Shown here piece after piece: positions 3,040 to 46,880 of a stretch of 62,070 nt of DNA. This stretch comes from Clostridiales bacterium (GTDB lineage Bacteria > Bacillota > Clostridia > Christensenellales > Pumilibacteraceae), in the NCBI GenBank assembly GCA_029066805.1, contig JAIEFT010000015.1, positions 1-62,070 on the forward strand, in the 5' to 3' direction. The notes under the pieces are model-generated. The model did not search any database and was not told the origin of the DNA. It saw only the letters and a list, made by a program, of their open reading frames with translations. Every line of letters begins with the position of its first letter. The first letter of the stretch is position 1. Both the position numbers and the translations under genes were made by a program.

Positions 3040-3075
3040 AAAAACGCTCCTACATAAAAGTGTAGGAGCGTTTTT
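3040..3075 (-). terminator. terminator of the tRNA-Lys-Tyr operon
   Basis: AAAAACGCTCCTAC pairs with GTAGGAGCGTTTTT around a short loop, so both strands give a GC stem with a T run. It begins at the CCA end of tRNA-Tyr, so it ends that operon. Confidence 0.85.
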
Positions 3076-3159
3076 GGTGGACGGGGGTGGATTCGAACCA
3101 CCGAAAGCGAAGCTGACAGATTTACAGTCTGTTCCCTTTGGCCACTCGGGAACCCGTCC
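3075..3159 (-). tRNA. tRNA-Tyr (GTA)
   Basis: A class II tRNA with a long variable arm and anticodon GTA in a GACTGTAAATC context. The acceptor stem is GGACGGG/CCCGTCC and CCA is encoded (3075-3077). It is the second gene of the Lys-Tyr operon. Its 3' end is copied at 2845-2863. Confidence 0.95.
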
Positions 3160-37288: not shown

Positions 37289-38197
37289 ATGTTTGGAAAG
37301 AGCTCGAGTAAACTAAAGCCGAGCGGCGACGAAATGCGCATATACATATCGCCGATAATGTTTGTAATGGCGCTGTACTTTGTTGCGATGGGCATGGCAT
37401 ACGAGTTTTGCTGCTCGCTTGCGGCGGTGCTATTGCACGAGTGCGCACACGCGCGCGTCGCCAAAAAACTCGGCTACGAACTTAACGTGATCAAACTAAT
37501 GCCGTACGGCGCTGCGCTGTGCGGCAACGTTCAGCTAAAGCCCAAGCACGAAGTGTTTATAGCCGTTGCCGGACCTGTTTTTAACATTTTTGTCGCTGTG
37601 GTGATAGCGGCGGTGTGGTGGGTGCTGCCGTCGTCATACATGTTTACGCAAGCCTTTTGCTACGGCAATATTTATATAGGGCTGTTCAACCTTTTGCCGG
37701 TATATCCGCTGGATGGCGGCAGGGTAATGCTTGCGTTGCTCTCCGGAAAAATCAAGCGCGGCAAAGCGTATACGATCATGCGCATAGTGTCGGCGGTTTG
37801 CGGAACAGTTGCTATCGCACTGTTCGTGCTGTTTTCTGTGCACGCGCTAAACCTGTGTCTGCTTAGCGTCGGGCTGTTCATGATAGTATCGGCGTTCATT
37901 CCGGACGGCAGAGCAAAATATCGCGCGCTTTTTGCTGTGGGCAACCGCATGGAAATGCTCAAAAGTCCGCTTGAGGTAAAGCTGTATGCAGTGTCGCGTC
38001 ATGCCGTAATTGCCGATGTGTGCGCAATGCTCGACCCCGACCGTTACAGCGAGTTTACCGTAATAGACGACAACATGAACGAGTGCGGGCGTTTTACGGA
38101 AACTCAACTTATAGCCGCGGTCAAGCAACACGGCTACGGAAAAAACGTCGGAAATGTTTTTGAGCTTGGGATCAAGACTAATTTGAAAAAGGAATAA
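37289..38197 (+). CDS. site-2 protease, SpoIVFB-like (M50)
   Basis: A 302-residue integral membrane metalloprotease. The zinc motif is HECAH and the second metal-ligand motif is NLLPVYPLDGGR. There are about six helices, and a C-terminal ~75-residue soluble part is reminiscent of a CBS-like domain. SpoIVFB cleaves pro-sigma-K in the mother cell during sporulation, and the neighbourhood (mreB, minD) is that of Bacillus spoIVFAB, so this is the likely role. It starts 6 bases after the small TM gene. Confidence 0.87.
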   Translation: MFGKSSSKLKPSGDEMRIYISPIMFVMALYFVAMGMAYEFCCSLAAVLLHECAHARVAKKLGYELNVIKLMPYGAALCGNVQLKPKHEVFIAVAGPVFNIFVAVVIAAVWWVLPSSYMFTQAFCYGNIYIGLFNLLPVYPLDGGRVMLALLSGKIKRGKAYTIMRIVSAVCGTVAIALFVLFSVHALNLCLLSVGLFMIVSAFIPDGRAKYRALFAVGNRMEMLKSPLEVKLYAVSRHAVIADVCAMLDPDRYSEFTVIDDNMNECGRFTETQLIAAVKQHGYGKNVGNVFELGIKTNLKKE

Positions 38198-38215: not shown

Positions 38216-38244
38216 TTGACAAAACGGCAGATTTTTTTTATAAT
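38216..38244 (+). promoter_or_regulatory. promoter of the aro operon
   Basis: TTGACA (38216-38221), a 17-bp spacer and TATAAT (38239-38244) form a perfect consensus promoter. Transcription should start near 38251, about 20 bases before the leader peptide. Confidence 0.85.
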
Positions 38245-38271
38245 CTATTTATCTGGCTACGGAGAAGAAAT

Positions 38272-38355
38272 ATGAACCGTTTGAATGTTTACAGCGCATA
38301 TTTTTACTTTAGCAAGGGCTATTACTTTAGTAGCCCCAATTTGTGTGTGCGGTAA
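38272..38355 (+). CDS. Tyr/Phe-rich leader peptide of the aro operon
   Basis: A 27-codon open reading frame with GGAG at 38261-38264. It encodes MNRLNV-YSAYFYF-SKGYYF-SSPNLCVR. Five tyrosines and three phenylalanines sit within residues 7-19. It lies between a consensus promoter and a terminator, directly before a shikimate operon that makes Tyr/Phe precursors. This is the classic layout of ribosome-mediated attenuation (as for pheA and trp leaders). If Tyr- or Phe-tRNA is scarce the ribosome stalls before 38331, and the downstream antiterminator can form. Normal translation reaches the stop at 38353 and covers its 5' arm. The peptide itself probably has no other role. Confidence 0.85.
   Translation: MNRLNVYSAYFYFSKGYYFSSPNLCVR
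38316..38336 (+). promoter_or_regulatory. hairpin inside the leader coding region
   Basis: GGGCTA (38316-38321) pairs with TAGCCC (38331-38336) across the Tyr-Tyr-Phe codons. It can serve as the pause hairpin that synchronises polymerase with the leading ribosome. Confidence 0.5.
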
Positions 38356-38399
38356 AATTTTTCTTTGATTGGAAAGTCAAAATTAAAAACCAAAACCGC
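38349..38399 (+). promoter_or_regulatory. candidate antiterminator hairpin
   Basis: GCGGT (38349-38353), TTTTT (38358-38362) and TTTGA (38364-38368) can pair in order with ACCGC (38395-38399), AAAAA (38385-38389) and TCAAA (38377-38381). This fold uses part of the terminator's 5' arm. Its 5' side overlaps the leader stop codon, so a ribosome at the stop would block it. Confidence 0.5.
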
Positions 38400-38417
38400 C
38401 GCAGTGGCGGTTTTTTT
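38392..38417 (+). terminator. attenuator terminator of the aro operon
   Basis: AAAACCGCC (38392-38400), loop GCAGT, GGCGGTTTT and a run of seven T end three bases before the aroF ribosome-binding site (AGGAGG). It is a strong intrinsic terminator in a place where it would stop all operon transcription unless suppressed. Confidence 0.85.
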
Positions 38418-38429
38418 GTAGGAGGCAAC

Positions 38430-39446
38430 ATGATTATCACTCTGAAAAACGATTCGGATGAAAAGCAGCTGAAAAACCTGATGGGCTGGATCAATAATTT
38501 AGGTCTCGAAACTCATCTCGTCCGAGGAGAGAACTCTACGGTTTTGGGGTTGGTGGGTGACACTTCCCGCGTGGATATGGATTTGTTGAATTCTTTGGAC
38601 ATAGTGGATAAGGTCACAAGAATTCAAGAACCGTATAAGAACGCAAACAGGAAGCTCCACCCCGAAGATACCATAGTAGACGTTGCGGGACACCGTTTCG
38701 GCGGAATAAATTTTCAACTGATTGCCGGCCCGTGTTCGGTGGAAAGTGAAGAACAAGTCCTTACAATCGCACGCGCCGTCAAAAAATCGGGCGCTACGCT
38801 GCTTCGCGGCGGTGCGTTCAAACCGCGTACATCGCCCTACGCCTTTCAAGGATTAAAAGCGCAGGGCTTGGAGATTTTACTCCGCGCAAAAGAGGAAACC
38901 GGAATGCCGATTGTGACGGAAATCATGAACATCAATCATCTTCCTCTTTTTGAAAACGTGGACGTCATTCAAGTGGGCGCGAGAAACATGCAAAACTTCG
39001 AACTATTGAAAGAGCTCGGCAAAATTCGCAAACCGATCCTTTTGAAAAGAGGACTTGCCAATACTATCGAAGAATGGTTGATGAGCGCGGAGTATATCAT
39101 GGCGGGAGGAAATACGGAGGTCATTCTTTGTGAACGCGGAATTCGCACTTTCGAGCCGTACACCCGCAACACATTGGACTTGTCCGCCATTCCGATTTTG
39201 AAAGAAAAGACGCATCTGCCCGTCATAGTAGATCCGTCTCATGCGTCGGGACTGTCGAGACTTGTTGCACCCATGTCCTTGGCGGCAGTGGGCGCAGGTG
39301 CGGACGGACTTATCATAGAAGTCCACAACGATCCGCCGCACGCGCTTTGCGACGGCGCGCAAAGCCTACGCCCCGAACAGTTTGACGAGCTTGTCAAGCG
39401 GCTGGACGTGATGTTGCCTGTAGTATCCAAGGTGCGCGAAAAATAG
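38430..39446 (+). CDS. aroF: 3-deoxy-7-phosphoheptulonate synthase (DAHP synthase)
   Basis: A 338-residue class I-beta DAHP synthase, the first committed step of aromatic synthesis (PEP + erythrose-4-P). The N-terminal ~70 residues form the ferredoxin-like regulatory domain known from Thermotoga, often the site of Tyr/Phe inhibition. The barrel shows IAGPCSVES, GGAFKPRTSPYAFQG, ILLKRGLANTIEEW and VDPSHASG. AGGAGG directly before ATG 38430 sets the start. It is the first gene after the attenuator. Confidence 0.95.
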   Translation: MIITLKNDSDEKQLKNLMGWINNLGLETHLVRGENSTVLGLVGDTSRVDMDLLNSLDIVDKVTRIQEPYKNANRKLHPEDTIVDVAGHRFGGINFQLIAGPCSVESEEQVLTIARAVKKSGATLLRGGAFKPRTSPYAFQGLKAQGLEILLRAKEETGMPIVTEIMNINHLPLFENVDVIQVGARNMQNFELLKELGKIRKPILLKRGLANTIEEWLMSAEYIMAGGNTEVILCERGIRTFEPYTRNTLDLSAIPILKEKTHLPVIVDPSHASGLSRLVAPMSLAAVGAGADGLIIEVHNDPPHALCDGAQSLRPEQFDELVKRLDVMLPVVSKVREK

Positions 39447-39470: not shown

Positions 39471-40661
39471 ATGGAAATAAACGAAAATGCGTACATGCTT
39501 GGCAGCAAGCGTTCGGTTATAAGAGAAATATTCGAGTACGGCAAAAAAAGGTCGGCGGAAATAGGTGCGGAAAACGTATTCGATTTTTCTATCGGCAATC
39601 CCAGCGTGCAGCCGCCGAAAGAGGTTTCAGAGGCTATAAAAGAGCTGCTAAAAACCGAGGATTCTGTGCTTTTGCACGGCTACACGTCGGCGCAGGGCGA
39701 CTTTGGCACGAGAAAGGCGGTTTCCGACTCTGTAAATAAACGGTTCGGCTTAACGCTCACGCCCGATAATATCTATATGACGTGCGGCGCGGCGGCGTCG
39801 CTTGCGATATCGTTGAAAGCGCTGTTAAACCCCGGCGAAGAGTGCGTGGTTTTTGCGCCGTTCTTTACCGAATACCGCGTGTTTATAGAAAACGCGGGCG
39901 GAAAGGTGGTCGTATCTAAACCGAACGAAAGGGATTTCCAGATAGATCTAAACGATTTTAAAGCAAAGATAAACGAGAATACGCGCGTAGTTATTATAAA
40001 CTCGCCGAACAATCCGAGCGGAGTCGTATACACCTCCAATACCGTAGAGCGCGTGTGCAAAATATTAAAGGAAAAGGAAAAAGAGTACGGAAAAACGATA
40101 TACCTAATTTCCGACGAGCCGTACCGCGAGCTTGTGTATGACGGAGTAAAAGTACCGTATTTAATGAATTACTATGACGATACTTTGGTATGTTACTCAT
40201 ATTCAAAATCATTGTCTCTGCCGGGCGAGAGAATAGGCTATATCGCAGTTAATCCGGCAATGAAAGACGCGCAAAAAGTCTATCTTGCGATTTGCGGTGC
40301 GGGAAGGATGTTGGGTTACATCTGTGCGCCCAGTCTTTTTCAGCAGGTTATCAAGCGCTGTGTGGATACAAAAGTGAATGTTACGGCGTATAAAAAGAAC
40401 CGTGATATTTTGTACAATGCGCTTACCGAACACGGTTACGAATGCGTTAAGCCCGACGGCGCGTTCTATCTTTTTGTCAAGGCTTTGGAAGATGATGCCG
40501 TAAAATTCTGCGAAAAGGCGCGAGGGAAGGATATTTTAGTAGTCCCTTGCGACGATTTCGGCGTACAAGGCTACGTTCGTATCGCTTACTGTGTTCCTAC
40601 CGAAAAAATCGAGCGTTCACTCCCTAAGTTCAAAGAACTTTGGCAGCAGTACAGCTTGTAA
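39471..40661 (+). CDS. class I aminotransferase (aspartate/aromatic type)
   Basis: A 396-residue PLP enzyme. It has NSPNNPSGVVY (PLP and substrate binding), SDEPYRELVYDG and the PLP lysine in YSYSKSLSLPGERIG. Inside the aro operon its likely job is the final transamination of phenylpyruvate or 4-hydroxyphenylpyruvate, or of prephenate, with glutamate or aspartate. Sequence alone does not separate these. It is of normal length. Confidence 0.9.
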   Translation: MEINENAYMLGSKRSVIREIFEYGKKRSAEIGAENVFDFSIGNPSVQPPKEVSEAIKELLKTEDSVLLHGYTSAQGDFGTRKAVSDSVNKRFGLTLTPDNIYMTCGAAASLAISLKALLNPGEECVVFAPFFTEYRVFIENAGGKVVVSKPNERDFQIDLNDFKAKINENTRVVIINSPNNPSGVVYTSNTVERVCKILKEKEKEYGKTIYLISDEPYRELVYDGVKVPYLMNYYDDTLVCYSYSKSLSLPGERIGYIAVNPAMKDAQKVYLAICGAGRMLGYICAPSLFQQVIKRCVDTKVNVTAYKKNRDILYNALTEHGYECVKPDGAFYLFVKALEDDAVKFCEKARGKDILVVPCDDFGVQGYVRIAYCVPTEKIERSLPKFKELWQQYSL

Positions 40662-40682
40662 AGGCTATATAAGGTGATTAAG

Positions 40683-41732
40683 ATGAAATCGGTTCGCGTT
40701 AACGCTTCTCGAAAGTACGATGTGTCTATCGGGGCGGGGCTTCTAAATGAGATTCCGTCTGTTTTGGCATCTCTTTGCAAAAAAGGGAAGCTCCTTGTTG
40801 TTACCGACGATACCGTGGATCGACTGTACGCAGATCGCGTTTTAGCCGCGCTGAACGAGCGTGGATTCGAGGCAAATAAATTTGTCTTTCCGCACGGGGA
40901 GCAGAATAAAACCTTAGCTACGTTTTCAAATATCTTGGATACGCTTGCCGACTGCGGATTTACACGTACTGACGGCATTGTTGCGCTTGGCGGCGGGGTT
41001 ACGGGGGACGTCGCCGGATTCGCGGCGGCAACCTATATGCGCGGAATATACTACGCGCAAGTCCCCACTACGCTACTTGCCGGCATTGATTCTTCGGTAG
41101 GCGGAAAAACTGCGGTGGATTTGGCGGGAGGAAAAAATCTCATGGGCGCATTCCACCAACCCGTTGCCGTCATCTTCGACACAGACACGTTGAAAACCCT
41201 TCCTAAAGAATATATACAGGACGGGCTTGGCGAAGGCTTGAAGTACGCGGCGCTTTGCGGCGGAGAGCTGATGGAAATTATGGAAAGCGGACTGAATGAA
41301 AAAAACTTCGAACGCTTTTTGGAGTTATGCGTAAGCTGCAAACGTGACATCGTGGAAGCAGACGAACGGGAAAGCGGAGTGCGGAGGCTTTTAAACCTCG
41401 GTCACACGCTCGGACATGCGCTCGAAAAGGTAAGTGACTTTTCAATCTCTCACGGCAAGGCGGTTGCCGACGGTATGATGCGAATAACTGAAATCGCCGT
41501 TAAGAATAAGCTTTTATCCGCTGATGATGGGGAAAGAATGCTCTCGCTATGTAAAAAATACGGAATGAAAATACATGCCGAATATCCGACGGAGGCTTTG
41601 TTAGAGCCGATAAAATCAGATAAAAAGAGAGCGGGCGACAAGCTGCATTTGGTTATACCCCGCGGAATAGGAAAGTGCGAAACTCTAACGGTAGCGCAAC
41701 AGGATTGGAGGACGTTTTTCTGTGGAGATTAA
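40683..41732 (+). CDS. aroB: 3-dehydroquinate synthase
   Basis: A 349-residue NAD-dependent, metal-dependent cyclase converting DAHP to 3-dehydroquinate. It shows VALGGGVTGDVAGFAAATYMRG in pieces (GGGVTGD, AATYMRG), QVPTTLLAGIDSSVGGKTAVD and the zinc-ligand region NLGHTLGHALE. AAGGTG 6 bases before ATG 40683 sets the start. The end overlaps aroA by 11 bases. Confidence 0.96.
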   Translation: MKSVRVNASRKYDVSIGAGLLNEIPSVLASLCKKGKLLVVTDDTVDRLYADRVLAALNERGFEANKFVFPHGEQNKTLATFSNILDTLADCGFTRTDGIVALGGGVTGDVAGFAAATYMRGIYYAQVPTTLLAGIDSSVGGKTAVDLAGGKNLMGAFHQPVAVIFDTDTLKTLPKEYIQDGLGEGLKYAALCGGELMEIMESGLNEKNFERFLELCVSCKRDIVEADERESGVRRLLNLGHTLGHALEKVSDFSISHGKAVADGMMRITEIAVKNKLLSADDGERMLSLCKKYGMKIHAEYPTEALLEPIKSDKKRAGDKLHLVIPRGIGKCETLTVAQQDWRTFFCGD

Positions 41733-42981
41733 ATTGATCCCTAAAAGCCTAAAAGGACGGGTGGATTTACCTTCCTCTAAATCCTACGCGCACCGTATGT
41801 TGATTACGGCGGCGTTTTCCCGTACCGAAAGCGTGTTAACGGGTGATTTTTCCTCGCAAGATATGTTAGCCACTTTGCGCGTACTGACCGCGTTGGGTGC
41901 AAGGTTTGAATCCGTCGACGGCGGCGTCAAAATCATGCCCGCCGTAAAGGCGGAGCGTGCGGTAGCGGATTGCGGTGAAAGCGGTTCTACTTTGCGGTTT
42001 TCTGTTCCGATCAGCGCCGCTTTGGGGATTGAAACAACGTTTATCGGCGCAAAGCGGTTGAGCGAACGTCCGATGGAAGAGCTTTTAAACTGCTTAAAGG
42101 AACACGGGATTCAAGTTACGGGAGATGGATTTCCTTTAAAAATCTCCGGTAAGTTATCGGCGGGGGATTATCAAATCGACGCCGGTCGTTCTTCCCAATA
42201 CGTGACCGGACTATTGCTTGCTTTGCCGTTATTGGATGGGGATAGCACACTTACGGTGCACGGCGAAGCCTCCAAGACTTATATCGATATCACTTTGGAC
42301 GTACTAAGCGGCAGCTGTGCCGAAATCACGCAAAAAGGAAATACTTTTTTTGTCCGAGGCGTGGGATATTCCGTTTCGGGCGAGAAAAAAGTAGAGGGCG
42401 ACTGGTCCAATGCGGCGTTTTGGATGGTCGCGGGGCTACTCGGGGAGGAAATTTCCATCGGGAATTTGAATCCCTCGTCCCGTCAAGGCGATCGGCGCGT
42501 GGAAAAATTATTAAAGGAAGCGGGCGGGAATTTAAGTTGGAATAACGGTAGACTGTCGGCAAGACCGTCCGCGCTTCACGGCATCACCTTTGACGCAGAC
42601 GACATCCCCGACGCCGTGCCTGCCATGTCCGTTGCCTTAGCTTCGGCGAATGGGACTTCGGTCATCACCGGTGTAAAACGTTTGAGACTCAAGGAAAGCG
42701 ACCGCTTGACTGCCGTCATGGATATGTTGACGCGTTTGGGAGTACCCGTCGCTTATATTGCAGAGCAAGATGCGTTAAAAATTAATGGCGTTCCATACTT
42801 TACCGGAGCAACGCTCAGCTCCTACAACGATCATCGTTTGGCAATGGCGGGCGCGGTTGCAGCCATTCGTGCCAGATCGCCTGTTGCTTTAACGGGCGCG
42901 GAAGCTGTAAAAAAATCCTATCCCGCATTCTTTGCGGATTACGAAAGCTTGGGAGGTAACATATGTCGTTTGCCACTTTAA
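41722..42981 (+). CDS. aroA: 3-phosphoshikimate 1-carboxyvinyltransferase (EPSP synthase)
   Basis: A 419-residue two-domain enzyme adding PEP to shikimate-3-phosphate. It has LPSSKSYAHRMLI, ADCGESGSTLRF (in place of the common DAGTAGTAxR), the substrate segment GRSSQYVTGLLLALPL, and RLRLKESDRLTA and YNDHRLAMA. CGESGST marks a class II type, reported as less glyphosate-sensitive. It starts at GTG 41722 with GGAGG about 10 bases before, inside aroB. It overlaps aroC. Confidence 0.96.
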   Translation: MEIKLIPKSLKGRVDLPSSKSYAHRMLITAAFSRTESVLTGDFSSQDMLATLRVLTALGARFESVDGGVKIMPAVKAERAVADCGESGSTLRFSVPISAALGIETTFIGAKRLSERPMEELLNCLKEHGIQVTGDGFPLKISGKLSAGDYQIDAGRSSQYVTGLLLALPLLDGDSTLTVHGEASKTYIDITLDVLSGSCAEITQKGNTFFVRGVGYSVSGEKKVEGDWSNAAFWMVAGLLGEEISIGNLNPSSRQGDRRVEKLLKEAGGNLSWNNGRLSARPSALHGITFDADDIPDAVPAMSVALASANGTSVITGVKRLRLKESDRLTAVMDMLTRLGVPVAYIAEQDALKINGVPYFTGATLSSYNDHRLAMAGAVAAIRARSPVALTGAEAVKKSYPAFFADYESLGGNICRLPL

Positions 42982-44045
42982 AGATTACTGTGTTCGGTGA
43001 ATCGCACGGACCTGCCGTAGGCGTCACGGTGGAAGGGTTTCCTGCGGGTATTCCCGTGGACGAGAAAGGTTTACAGGCGTTTATGTCACGCCGAAAGACT
43101 CAGTCCGCTTTTTCCACTCCGCGTGTCGAGGGTGATCGGCCTGTCTTTTTGTCGGGTGTCAAGAACGGATTTACCACCGGCGCGCCGTTGAATGCCACAA
43201 TTTATAACACAAATCAGAAAAGTAGCGACTACGAACCCTTTAGGGACGTTCCCCGTCCCGCCCATGCCGACTACGTTGCTGGGGTAAAATATAAAGGATT
43301 CGCCGATTTGGCAGGCGGAGGGCATTTTTCGGGAAGGCTTACCGCGCCGTTATGCGTTGTCGGATATCTCGCTGAGACTTATCTGGAAAAGAAAGGAATT
43401 TTTGTGGGCGCGTACTTAAGCGAAGTCGGCGGAATCCACGCTTCCTCCTATCTTGACGGCATTCCTACCAAAGAGGAAATGGAAACCACACAGGGAAAAG
43501 CCGTTCCCGTGCTGCGCGGCATAAAAAATAAGGAAATCGAGGAAATGCTGCGATCTGTCAAGGCGGAAGGAGACTCCGTCGGTGGCATAATCGAGTGCGT
43601 CGCCTTGGGACTGCCCGTGGGCTTGGGCGAATGCGGCTTTCGAAGCATGGAAGGACGGATCGCGTCCGCAATCTTTGCCATGCCGGCAACTAAAGGACTG
43701 GAGTTCGGTTCGGGCTTTTTGCTGCCTCGAATGAAAGGTAGCGAAGGGAATGATCCGTGGACGTTGAATGGCGGCGCTATAGTCCCTAAAACCAACCACA
43801 ACGGCGGAATCAACGGCGGAATCACCAACGGTGCGCCCGTTTTGGTGCGCGTTGCGATAAAACCTACGCCGTCCATTGCAAAAGAACAGGATAGCGTGAA
43901 CATAAAAGATATGACTCCTACAAAGCTGACCGTGGGCGGACGGCACGATACATGTATTGCACTCCGCGCCGTACCCGTAGTGGAGTCCTGCGTAGCAATC
44001 GCAATTTCCGATGCGTTATTGGAAATGCAAGGGCAAAATTACTAA
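42963..44045 (+). CDS. aroC: chorismate synthase
   Basis: A 360-residue FMN-dependent lyase giving chorismate from EPSP. It shows FGESHGPAVGVTVEG, FMSRRKTQS, the GGGHFSGR signature and GGRHDTCIALRAVPV. GGGAGG lies before the ATG, inside aroA. Chorismate made here feeds the next gene, pheA. Confidence 0.97.
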   Translation: MSFATLKITVFGESHGPAVGVTVEGFPAGIPVDEKGLQAFMSRRKTQSAFSTPRVEGDRPVFLSGVKNGFTTGAPLNATIYNTNQKSSDYEPFRDVPRPAHADYVAGVKYKGFADLAGGGHFSGRLTAPLCVVGYLAETYLEKKGIFVGAYLSEVGGIHASSYLDGIPTKEEMETTQGKAVPVLRGIKNKEIEEMLRSVKAEGDSVGGIIECVALGLPVGLGECGFRSMEGRIASAIFAMPATKGLEFGSGFLLPRMKGSEGNDPWTLNGGAIVPKTNHNGGINGGITNGAPVLVRVAIKPTPSIAKEQDSVNIKDMTPTKLTVGGRHDTCIALRAVPVVESCVAIAISDALLEMQGQNY

Positions 44046-44085: not shown

Positions 44086-45225
44086 ATGGAATTAAATGAA
44101 CTTAGAACCCAAATAGATGCTATAGACGACCAACTGGCGTCGCTTTACGATAGGCGCATGAAACTGATTAAGCAAGTAGGCGAGGAAAAAGCACGAACAG
44201 ATAGCTACGTACAGGATTTGACCAGAGAGAACGCCGTTATTCGCCGTGTGACCAAGGCGGTGGATGATAGCGTGCGCGTCTACTGCAAACAAGTGTTTGA
44301 AACGCTGTTTGAAACCAGCCGTGCTTATCAAGCGCGGTTTGTTCGCATCCATTCCGGCGTGGCCGAAGAGATCCGTTCTAATCTGGAAAGCGGATTAAAA
44401 ACATTCCCCGACTACGCGACAGTCGCTTGTCAAGGCGTTGAAGGTGCGTACAGCATGATTGCAACTACAAGGCTGTTTCCGCTAAGCGACATTACCTACT
44501 TCAAAAACTTCGAGGGCGTTTTTAACGCGGTGGAAAAGGGCTTGTGTAGGTACGGCATGCTGCCGATCGAAAACAGCTCTGTGGGTTCTGTCAACGCCGT
44601 GTACGACCTCATGAAAGAACACAAATTCTACATTGTACGCAGTATTAAACTTCACGTTCAACATCACTTGCTTGCTAAAAAGGGCGTGGAGCTAAGTGAA
44701 ATTAAAGAGGTATTCTCGCACGAGCAAGCCATCAACCAGTGTAAAAAGTGGCTGGAAAAAACGGACGTAAAAGTTACAATTGTTCCCAACACGGCGGTTG
44801 CCGCAAAGATGGTGGCGGAGTCGGAGCGGACAGACGTCGCATGCATCAGCAGTCGGGAATGCGCCTCTTTGTACGGACTGAACGTTCTTGCCGCGAATAT
44901 GCAGGATAACGACAGCAACTATACTCGATTCATATTGATTTCAAAAAAAATGGAAATTTTCAAAAAGTCGAACCGCGTGTCTATAATGGTTAATTTACCA
45001 CATACGTCGGGAAGTCTCAACCGTATGTTGAACAAATTTTCCACCTTAGGATTCAACCTGACGAAATTGGAGTCCCGCCCACTTCCGAATTCGACGTTTG
45101 AGTTTATGTTCTACTTCGATTTCGAGGCGGATATCGAAAATCCCGAAGTGGCGAACCTCTTTGCGGAATTGGAGAACGGGGAAGGACAGTTAGTATTTTT
45201 AGGCAGCTATTACGAGGTGGCGTAA
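44086..45225 (+). CDS. pheA: chorismate mutase / prephenate dehydratase (P-protein)
   Basis: A 379-residue bifunctional enzyme. Residues ~1-88 are an AroQ-type chorismate mutase (LRTQIDAIDDQLASLYDRRMKL). Residues ~105-280 are prephenate dehydratase (VACQGVEGAYS, LPIENSSVGSV, NYTRFI). A C-terminal ACT domain has LESRP, the phenylalanine-binding signature. It converts chorismate to phenylpyruvate and should be inhibited by Phe. GGAGG precedes the ATG. Downstream aroE follows directly, with no gap. Confidence 0.95.
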   Translation: MELNELRTQIDAIDDQLASLYDRRMKLIKQVGEEKARTDSYVQDLTRENAVIRRVTKAVDDSVRVYCKQVFETLFETSRAYQARFVRIHSGVAEEIRSNLESGLKTFPDYATVACQGVEGAYSMIATTRLFPLSDITYFKNFEGVFNAVEKGLCRYGMLPIENSSVGSVNAVYDLMKEHKFYIVRSIKLHVQHHLLAKKGVELSEIKEVFSHEQAINQCKKWLEKTDVKVTIVPNTAVAAKMVAESERTDVACISSRECASLYGLNVLAANMQDNDSNYTRFILISKKMEIFKKSNRVSIMVNLPHTSGSLNRMLNKFSTLGFNLTKLESRPLPNSTFEFMFYFDFEADIENPEVANLFAELENGEGQLVFLGSYYEVA

Positions 45226-46452
45226 GTGGCTGACTACGGTTTGATCGGGGAAAAGCTGGGACACAGTTTTTCCGCCGTAATCCACAAAGAATTCGGCTAC
45301 GACTACGAGCTGAAAGAATTGTCTCCGTCAGAATTGGCGAGCTTCATGTCGAACCCACCGTACGTGGGGTTTAACGTAACTATTCCGTATAAGCAAACGG
45401 TCATGCCATACCTTGATGAAATTCATCCCGATGCGTCAGAGATAGGAGCGGTCAACACCGTTGTTGTCAAAAACGGGAAGCGTTTCGGGTACAATACCGA
45501 TTTTGCTGGCATGAAATTCGCGCTTTACGCGTACGGGATTCGTCCCGAAGGGAAGGACGTCTTGATTTTGGGTTCGGGCGGAACGGCGCGTACGGCGCGG
45601 GCGCTATTGAAGTCGCTTAACGCAAAGCGCATTCGCACTGTCAGCCGAACGGGGGAACTTAATTACGAAAATTTGCGGCTCGAAGGGAAGGATGCCGAAA
45701 TTATCGTCAACACCACTCCCGTGGGAATGTATCCCAATAACGACGGGTGTCCCGTGGACTTAGCGTGGTTTCCGCGTTTGCAAGGAGTATTCGACGCGGT
45801 CTATAATCCATTGACTACCCGTTTGGTGGCTACGGCAAAGGAACGGAAAATTGCTGCCGGTAACGGACTGATCATGTTGGTTGCGCAAGCAAAATTTGCC
45901 CGTGATTTGTTTTTTGAAACACCCTGCGACGACGCAGTTATACATGACGTTTTGAGAAAAATAGAGCGTGTAAAGCAAAATATCGTCCTTGTGGGAATGT
46001 CCGGTTGCGGTAAAACGACGATAGGCAAGTTGCTTGCCGACCGCTTGGATAAAACTTTTGTCGATACCGATGAAGAATTAATAAAAATATTCAGCAAATC
46101 CATTCCCGAAGTGTTCCGCGAGGACGGCGAGGAAAAGTTCCGCGCGGCGGAGCGGGAAGTTGTGGAAGCTTTATCCAAACAAAACGCGCTCGTAATCGCC
46201 ACGGGCGGCGGCGCGCCCTTATCGGATGTCAGTCGGGAACGCCTACGGCAAAACGCCGTGACGGTGTATCTCACCCGCAACATAAAATCTTTGGATAGAA
46301 CGGGCAGACCTCTTGCTATCAGCGAGCAGCGCGTCAGAGAGATGCTTGAGATACGCGATCCCATTTACCGCAAGACGTCGGATTTTGTCGTAAGCAACGA
46401 CGCCACGCCGCAGGAAACTGTTGATAAAATATTACGGGAGTTGAAAATATGA
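45226..46452 (+). CDS. shikimate dehydrogenase-shikimate kinase fusion (AroE-AroK)
   Basis: A 408-residue bifunctional enzyme. Residues 1-~247 are shikimate dehydrogenase (YGLIGEKLGHSFSAVIH, NVTIPYK, NTDFAGMKFAL, NADP loop GSGGTARTARA). Residues ~251-408 are shikimate kinase with Walker A GMSGCGKTT (~257-265), DTDEELI, a GGGAPL loop and the lid region LDRTGRPL. The linker is only a few residues. It carries two consecutive steps, 3-dehydroshikimate to shikimate to shikimate-3-phosphate. The start GTG 45226 directly abuts the pheA stop. Confidence 0.95.
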   Translation: MADYGLIGEKLGHSFSAVIHKEFGYDYELKELSPSELASFMSNPPYVGFNVTIPYKQTVMPYLDEIHPDASEIGAVNTVVVKNGKRFGYNTDFAGMKFALYAYGIRPEGKDVLILGSGGTARTARALLKSLNAKRIRTVSRTGELNYENLRLEGKDAEIIVNTTPVGMYPNNDGCPVDLAWFPRLQGVFDAVYNPLTTRLVATAKERKIAAGNGLIMLVAQAKFARDLFFETPCDDAVIHDVLRKIERVKQNIVLVGMSGCGKTTIGKLLADRLDKTFVDTDEELIKIFSKSIPEVFREDGEEKFRAAEREVVEALSKQNALVIATGGGAPLSDVSRERLRQNAVTVYLTRNIKSLDRTGRPLAISEQRVREMLEIRDPIYRKTSDFVVSNDATPQETVDKILRELKI

Positions 46453-46880
46453 AAGTATTGGTTTTGAACGGTCCGAATCTTAATATGCTCGGCATTCGTG
46501 AGCCCGCACTCTACGGAAACGGAACATATAATGACTTAGTGGACTTTATCCGAGACGCGGCAAAAGAATTGTATTTGGACGTGGAAATATTTCAATCCAA
46601 TTCGGAAGGAGAATTGGTGACTGCCATTCAAAATGCACTCGGCAAGTTTGACGGTATCGTTATCAACGCCGCCGCGTACACGCACACTTCGGTGGCGATT
46701 TTAGACGCATTAAAGGCGGTAGGATTACCGACGGCGGAAGTCCATTTGACCGACATTCATAATCGCGAACCGTTCCGCAGGCTTTCCTACGTCGGAATGT
46801 ATGCCCACAAAACGGTGTGCGGAAAGGGCTTTGAAGGCTACCGTGAGTGTTTAAAATGGATAGTCACGTCCGCAAGCTAA
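46449..46880 (+). CDS. aroQ: type II 3-dehydroquinate dehydratase
   Basis: A 143-residue dodecameric dehydratase. It shows VLNGPNLNMLGIREPALYG (catalytic Tyr), QSNSEGELV, INAAAYTHTSVAI and VHLTDIHNREPFR. It overlaps the fusion gene as ATGA. With it the operon holds all seven steps from DAHP formation to chorismate. No clear terminator with a T run follows. Confidence 0.96.
   Translation: MKVLVLNGPNLNMLGIREPALYGNGTYNDLVDFIRDAAKELYLDVEIFQSNSEGELVTAIQNALGKFDGIVINAAAYTHTSVAILDALKAVGLPTAEVHLTDIHNREPFRRLSYVGMYAHKTVCGKGFEGYRECLKWIVTSAS

Follow-up and report, generated by a model that had tools for sequence, protein, structure and literature searches.

The window, the whole 62,070-nucleotide stretch of contig JAIEFT010000015.1 that was analysed, comes from a Clostridiales bacterium of the Pumilibacteraceae and carries an operon of aromatic amino acid biosynthesis genes headed by aroF, with a short leader region in front. 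The features of the leader region and the operon are as follows.

38216..38244, plus strand: promoter TTGACA-N17-TATAAT (TTGACA 38216-38221, TATAAT 38239-38244)
38261..38264, plus strand: leader Shine-Dalgarno sequence GGAG, with the ATG 7 nt further on
38272..38355, plus strand: leader peptide frame, 27 codons with 5 Tyr and 3 Phe (translation, chance controls)
38290..38328, plus strand: control-codon block, residues 7-19 (codon list; stalls here leave the antiterminator free in folding)
38316..38336, plus strand: predicted hairpin within the leader frame, around Tyr17-Tyr18-Phe19 (9 pairs in the scan)
38344..38353, plus strand: predicted antiterminator 5' arm, spanning the last leader codons and the first base of the stop codon (folding, positional scan, shuffles)
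38358..38389, plus strand: predicted inner stems of the antiterminator (folding)
38393..38417, plus strand: predicted intrinsic terminator, stem 38393-38400/38406-38413, T-run 38411-38417 (folding and terminator scan)
38420..38425, plus strand: aroF Shine-Dalgarno sequence AGGAGG (read from the sequence)
38430..39446, plus strand: aroF, DAHP synthase (NCBIfam PRK08673, 493 bits; TIGR01361, 394 bits)
39471..40661, plus strand: PLP-dependent aminotransferase (NCBIfam PRK06836, 575 bits), in the slot of tyrA in the gene orders of relatives
40674..41732, plus strand: aroB (NCBIfam TIGR01357)
41722..42981, plus strand: aroA (NCBIfam TIGR01356)
42963..44045, plus strand: aroC (NCBIfam TIGR00033)
44086..45225, plus strand: pheA, chorismate mutase-prephenate dehydratase (NCBIfam PRK11898, 221 bits against a cut-off of 219)
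45226..46452, plus strand: aroE-aroK fusion (NCBIfam aroE and shikimate kinase models, both under cut-off)
46449..46880, plus strand: aroQ, type II dehydroquinase (NCBIfam TIGR01088)

The operon had been described in the initial annotation as a complete shikimate operon, and all seven of the seven steps are indeed represented, but the matches for aroE, the kinase and the chorismate mutase lie under the curated cut-offs. Specifically, the aroE half of the fusion scored 157 of 200 bits and the kinase half 126 of 186 bits, and the chorismate mutase domain of pheA scored 53 of 71 bits (all NCBIfam). Shikimate dehydrogenase and shikimate kinase are encoded in one fused frame (45226-46452). In addition, a tRNA-Tyr gene with anticodon GTA lies on the minus strand of the window at 3075-3159.

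The promoter, earlier called perfect, matches the consensus at 12 of 12 positions with a spacer of 17 nt. The leader frame runs from the ATG at 38272 to the TAA at 38353-38355 and encodes the peptide MNRLNVYSAYFYFSKGYYFSSPNLCVR, in which Tyr occupies residues 7, 10, 12, 17 and 18 and Phe residues 11, 13 and 19; translation and the codon list thus bear out the 27-codon frame with its GGAG and eight Tyr/Phe codons within residues 7-19. The terminator, with a folding energy of -11.7 kcal/mol, had been proposed to be strong; its T-run ends two bases, not three, ahead of the aroF AGGAGG. For the hairpin predicted around Tyr17-Tyr18-Phe19, covariation speaks weakly, with both-side changes in 2 of 7 pairs (three genomes), a count equalled by 110 of 500 shuffles.

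The pairing of GCGGT (38349-53) with ACCGC (38395-99) put forward in the initial annotation was recovered as part of a longer structure. In the best antiterminator found, 38344-38347 and 38349-38353 pair with 38395-38403, and two inner stems form (38358-38362/38385-38389 and 38364-38370/38375-38381), giving -16.8 kcal/mol in a fold of the RNA left free by a stalled ribosome. With the ribosome on the stop codon, the terminator alone forms, at -13.1 kcal/mol for the stretch. Folding with a ribosome mask, which had been suggested as a check, thus predicts that a stall frees the antiterminator and that a ribosome on the stop codon abolishes it. In a positional scan the ribosome was shifted codon by codon, the free RNA being taken to begin 11, 14 or 17 nt downstream of the codon in the A site. 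With each of these three footprints, the terminator 5' arm was sequestered at 0.98-0.99 wherever in codons 7-19 the A site was placed, and at no more than 0.07 once the ribosome had reached the stop codon; this drop falls within a few codons past the last aromatic codon. In line with the earlier proposal that the last aromatic codon lies far enough upstream, a stall at any control codon is predicted to leave the 5' arm of the antiterminator free. Compared with shuffled spacers, the antiterminator of this locus came out better in 39 of 40 cases. When the whole RNA was taken to equilibrium (footprint 14), the terminator was at least 0.93 formed with the ribosome stalled at codons 7-11 or 18-19. 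The ribosome-free RNA gave an ambiguous prediction, folding into the terminator in one run and into the antiterminator in another, the RNA ends differing slightly, and so gave no consistent picture of a pause or 1:2 hairpin that would free the terminator in the absence of translation. Because equilibrium often favours the terminator, the switch has to be kinetic; for antitermination, the antiterminator must already have folded when the terminator 3' arm is transcribed.

The locus contains the elements of an attenuator, namely a short frame that has a start codon and a Shine-Dalgarno sequence and in which codons for the amino acids under control are clustered, an intrinsic terminator between this leader and the first gene and, by folding and with the kinetic order assumed, an exclusive antiterminator that is free on a stall and covered at the stop. 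Very probably, the leader region acts as a ribosome-mediated transcription attenuator of the aro-pheA operon that responds to charged tRNA-Tyr and tRNA-Phe. From the frame, codons, signals, mutually exclusive folds, geometry and recurrence in relatives, which are computational observations, we infer translation of the leader, stalling, read-through and the amino acids sensed. Transcription would begin at the promoter (38216-38244), and the 27-codon leader would be translated behind the polymerase. When both Tyr and Phe are plentiful, the ribosome would reach the stop codon at 38353 and cover 38344-38366, and the terminator (38393-38417) would form. When charged tRNA for Tyr or Phe is short, the ribosome would pause within residues 7-19, at one of the eight aromatic codons, leaving the arm (38344-38353) free to pair with 38395-38403 before the terminator 3' arm exists, so that transcription would enter aroF. 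Most likely, such a switch would limit expression of the aromatic amino acid genes to times of Tyr or Phe shortage. Anatomy, ribosome-mask folding and comparative evidence are all consistent with the Tyr/Phe leader-peptide attenuation that had been proposed for this operon.

We found the same arrangement in front of aroF well beyond this locus. Two sets of loci were searched for a Shine-Dalgarno sequence followed by an ATG frame in which 6 or more of 13 codons are aromatic. The first comprised the upstream regions of 94 aroF genes close in sequence (80 loci plus family matches), with L092 and L104 (too little upstream sequence) and the partial aroF matches L045-L049 left out. The second, a wider draw of 87 aroF loci that is not a random sample, was made up from 29 loci from a search and 60 picked by hand among the matches listed of 210 genomes, leaving out L174 and L181 (not placed) and L142 and L173 (too short). 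An SD-preceded aromatic leader was found in 50 of the 94 close homologues and in 55 of the 87 loci of the wider draw; when the Shine-Dalgarno sequence was not required, the counts rose to 74 of 94 and 61 of 87. Hosts include Angelakisella massiliensis (L129) and Anaerovorax odorimutans (L102). The automatic choice of leader missed at least one true leader, that of L038 (MLHTYFYFYILVKEK). A Tyr/Phe leader before an aro operon of a clostridium had been regarded as non-standard; most of the loci examined have it. Two aroF copies stand head to head, with separate upstream regions, in L087 and in L167 and L168 (G145, G221); in L087 each copy has an aromatic leader of its own, whereas in G145 and G221 a frame bearing Phe and Trp codons precedes the copy that belongs to the pheA operon.

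Since the region is AT-rich and the upstream gene ends at 38197, just ahead of the promoter, TTT and TAT runs might arise by chance, and the terminator might simply be where transcription of the upstream gene stops. The controls leave this explanation a negligible probability: aromatic frames with a Shine-Dalgarno sequence and ATG appeared in 6 of 1880 shuffles of the 94 aroF upstream regions and in 0 of 800 control segments from the same 80 loci (19 of 800 without the Shine-Dalgarno requirement), against the 50 of 94 found in the native aroF upstream regions. Moreover, the 12/12 promoter sits between the upstream gene and the terminator, and leader and terminator recur together before aroF despite unrelated upstream sequence.

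The predicted switching geometry recurs as well. By equilibrium folding alone, 27 of 71 loci flipped below 0.5 on stalling; this test was judged too strict and was replaced by one of arm sequestration before the terminator 3' arm is made. For this test, 181 loci were reduced to 124 by dropping 40 with no leader of 6 aromatic codons, 12 with no terminator, 1 with a far terminator and 4 duplicates. Mean sequestration of the terminator 5' arm was 0.74 when the ribosome was stalled at the last aromatic codons and 0.37 when it was at the stop, compared with 0.53 for shuffled spacers; the corresponding values for the window locus were 0.85, 0.01 and 0.49. The loci, which are not independent of one another, lay above their own shuffle mean in 118 of 124 cases and within the best 5% in 57; in 13 of the 124, the stop state sequestered the arm more than the stall state. 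Native arm duplexes averaged -7.89 kcal/mol, compared with -6.15 kcal/mol for swapped partners, and 0 of 2000 permutations reached the native mean (n=123; L136, with a spurious frame, was left out by hand from this and the codon-operon comparison).

The position of the terminator also bears on whether the leader acts on aroF translation or mRNA decay, not on termination, a translation-coupling or mRNA-stability effect to which the two-base distance between the T-run and the aroF Shine-Dalgarno sequence might point. We consider this highly improbable, as that Shine-Dalgarno sequence lies outside the terminator stem, a stem and T-run stand between leader and gene in most loci, and in some of them (for example, L061, L079 and L106) over 100 nt separate the terminator from aroF. 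In TnaC-type leaders, the nascent peptide itself arrests the ribosome, and a nascent aromatic peptide might likewise do so here, sensing free Phe or Tyr, not charged tRNA. Downstream of their aromatic runs, leaders of several families have short motifs in common, GYFCCxK or CCK for example, which would fit such arrest; arrest is nevertheless very unlikely given that the peptides differ greatly among loci and Tyr and Phe exchange places. In addition, the antiterminator arm coincides in part with the common tail in many loci (the arm centre lies 4-17 nt before the stop in several), and so RNA pairing can explain this tail. Tails of this kind (CCK, AAK, VAD, TAK) were observed after the aromatic run in L147, L158, L161, L149, L150, L133, L145, L114 and others, their codons overlapping the predicted arm.

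Control of aroF by a T-box or another ligand-binding RNA, with the frame incidental, would be in line with the T-boxes that lie directly upstream of aroF in 3 of 20 scanned loci lacking a leader or terminator call (L199, L203 and L215), and with the matches before pheST and thrS in the genome of the window itself. For the window locus, we regard it as extremely improbable. No T-box (Rfam RF00230) was found in the window at the gathering score, and none in the leader even when E values as high as 10 were allowed; the aromatic frame recurs, and the roughly 100 nt from the frame start to the terminator leave no room for a T-box. No other Rfam family matched the leader at its gathering score either; membership of Phe_leader (RF01859) was rejected at 27.3 of 55 bits (E 0.0095), as was that of Leu_leader, which gave a weak match below the gathering score in a relaxed search. 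The T-box matches of the same genome (L221:794-988 and L220, on contigs C21 and C26) are under the gathering score, with 74.8 of 93 bits before pheST. Judged from these matches, the organism seems to read tRNA in two ways, by T-boxes at pheST and thrS and by a leader peptide for the Phe pathway.

Within the genus, aroF is present in 6 of 20 genomes, the window's own included. Leader and terminator are both kept in 4 of these 6 and both lost in 2, and the pattern that was named as evidence against attenuation, a terminator kept with the aromatic codons lost, was found in none of the six. In G014 and G015, promoter, Shine-Dalgarno sequence, leader, antiterminator and terminator are kept at 77% identity. 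Their leaders, MNVNRDNAFFYFNNGFYFNSHNLCAR and MNGNRGNAFFTFGSGYYFGSHNLCAR, respectively, have Tyr and Phe exchanged in places relative to that of the window; an in-frame 3-base gap removes one codon, and a lost T is compensated nearby, so that the one-base shift is repaired and the frame kept. Alignment of the leader, suggested earlier as a check, showed Tyr/Phe exchange in a kept frame, but not the compensatory pairs: no covariation of the antiterminator arms was seen within the genus, where they are invariant (three genomes). G002 has a distinct Phe-rich leader, MKKVFDFFFFRYFFPTDID, and a terminator of its own. In G010 and G011, leader and terminator are gone and another gene precedes aroF, in G011 one that we take to encode HPr kinase. 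The leaderless aroF genes of G011 (L032) and G010 (L034) are 92-95% identical to that of the window, and a CGG and T-run ahead of the Shine-Dalgarno sequence in G011 resembles a remnant of the terminator 3' arm. A DNA search of the family with the whole leader gave full-length matches in G014 and G015 only (77%), the others being short chance matches; as this search was uninformative beyond these two genomes, homology was traced through aroF and synteny.

The five Tyr codons of the window leader are at odds with what the genome seems able to make. TyrA (PF02153), TrpA (PF00290) and a chorismate-binding enzyme (PF00425) were not found in this genome (94% complete), whereas each was present in 14 of 14 control genomes, so chorismate seems to serve Phe alone. 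TyrA was not found in any of the 6 aroF-bearing genomes of the genus, and a gap in one assembly is therefore not the reason. In other genera of the family (G031, G037, G055, G056, G058 and G059), a TyrA match lies at most 100 bases downstream of aroF, and it is this slot that the aminotransferase occupies in the window operon. As the genome shows no TyrA, the operon product does not account for this number of Tyr codons. It is likely that tyrA was lost and that the leader, with mostly Tyr codons (5 of 8), lags behind. If so, shortage of Tyr would still switch on the Phe pathway in a cell that cannot produce Tyr.

Among the 983 aromatic codons in the densest windows of the leaders, TTT (430), TAT (243) and TAC (232) prevail over TTC (59) and TGG (19). 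Phe and Tyr codons occur together in 119 of 123 leaders and Trp codons in 18. We compared codon and operon content in 118 loci, with 0.9 to 8 kb of downstream sequence in view. The mean Tyr/(Tyr+Phe) was 0.74 in 13 operons with tyrA and none of aroB, aroA and aroC seen, 0.49 in 79 operons with tyrA and aroB/aroA/aroC genes, 0.38 in 15 operons with aroB/aroA/aroC genes and tyrA not seen, and 0.25 and 0.32 in 4 and 6 operons with pheA and without tyrA. Leader Tyr content was higher with tyrA in the operon (p 0.0003; 93 tyrA versus 17 non-tyrA operons), and the trend gave p 0.002-0.012 on clustered rows. The independent-pairs test, which is underpowered, gave a median p of 0.375 for the trend (10 pairs, 3.3 for and 0.6 against) and p 0.125 for tyrA-only operons (6 pairs, 4.3 for and 0.2 against). 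L057 was scored as lacking tyrA although tyrA was seen there; since its leader is Tyr-rich, this mis-scoring works against the trend, and the window locus itself runs against it. With a probability that we place a little short of even, these data may reflect a prevailing and probably old use of aromatic leader-peptide attenuation in DAHP synthase operons across the class Clostridia, in which one and the same gene changes between this device and a T-box, the window represents a lag, and the codon mix is retuned to the branch served. This retuning, held as tentatively as the reading of which it is part, would make leaders Tyr-rich in aroF-tyrA operons, balanced where tyrA accompanies the whole pathway, and Phe-rich with pheA.

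Leader-peptide attenuation of aromatic genes is, in the textbook view, proteobacterial, with T-boxes or TRAP serving in Gram-positives; the proteobacterial pheA, pheST, trp and his operons have ribosome-mediated attenuators. Like these, the window locus combines a leader peptide bearing control codons with a mutually exclusive antiterminator and terminator; unlike them, it is clostridial, mixes Tyr and Phe codons in its leader and stands ahead of DAHP synthase and an entire pathway. T-boxes also sense uncharged tRNA through a choice of terminator or antiterminator, but they read the tRNA directly and have no leader peptide. Among Firmicutes his genes, clostridial ones included, classic leader peptides are described in place of T-boxes in the accessible parts of PMC2965389 and PMC9413887; those leaders sense histidine, whereas the window leader carries aromatic codons. 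A precedent at aroF is the uORFC-13-1 motif of Acholeplasma and unknown environmental organisms (24 sequences; PMC8632094), in which a U run codes for at least one Phe and which likewise places a Phe-bearing uORF, promoter, ribosome-binding site and adjacent terminator upstream of aroF, while no Tyr mix is described in the accessible text. In a study of five genomes, Clostridium novyi among them (PMC6429828), the legend to Fig. 6b gives two candidate uORFs that bear F and Y and are associated with genes of shikimate metabolism; these share Phe and Tyr with the window leader and may be of the same kind, although the text covered names neither the genome nor the gene and describes neither antiterminator nor distribution. 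Candidate Phe/Tyr uORFs at shikimate genes are already in print (PMC6429828, PMC8632094). Putative terminator-based attenuators before operons of DAHP synthase and tyrA, for example in Thermoanaerobacter tengcongensis, appear in Table 7 of PMC1173090; they come from a database of predicted terminators, and the word 'leader' is absent from that paper. Tyr/Phe leaders before aroF across clostridia are not described in the accessible text of PMC8632094, PMC6429828, PMC2965389, PMC9413887, PMC1262725, PMC1173090, PMC2494555, PMC11109978, PMC2700814 and PMC7438776, and in the literature covered, with subscription journals mostly outside its scope, no report of such breadth or of a match between codons and operon was found.

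Ribosome-mediated attenuation is a known kind of control; what merits attention here is how widely it occurs and how leader codons match operon content. If the interpretation is correct, widespread gut and anaerobic clostridia would control entry into the shikimate pathway by counting codons, and the codon content of the leader would be a cheap predictor of the end product of uncharacterised aro operons. About a hundred parallel natural cases would then be at hand in which attenuators have been retuned, lost or replaced by a T-box at one gene.
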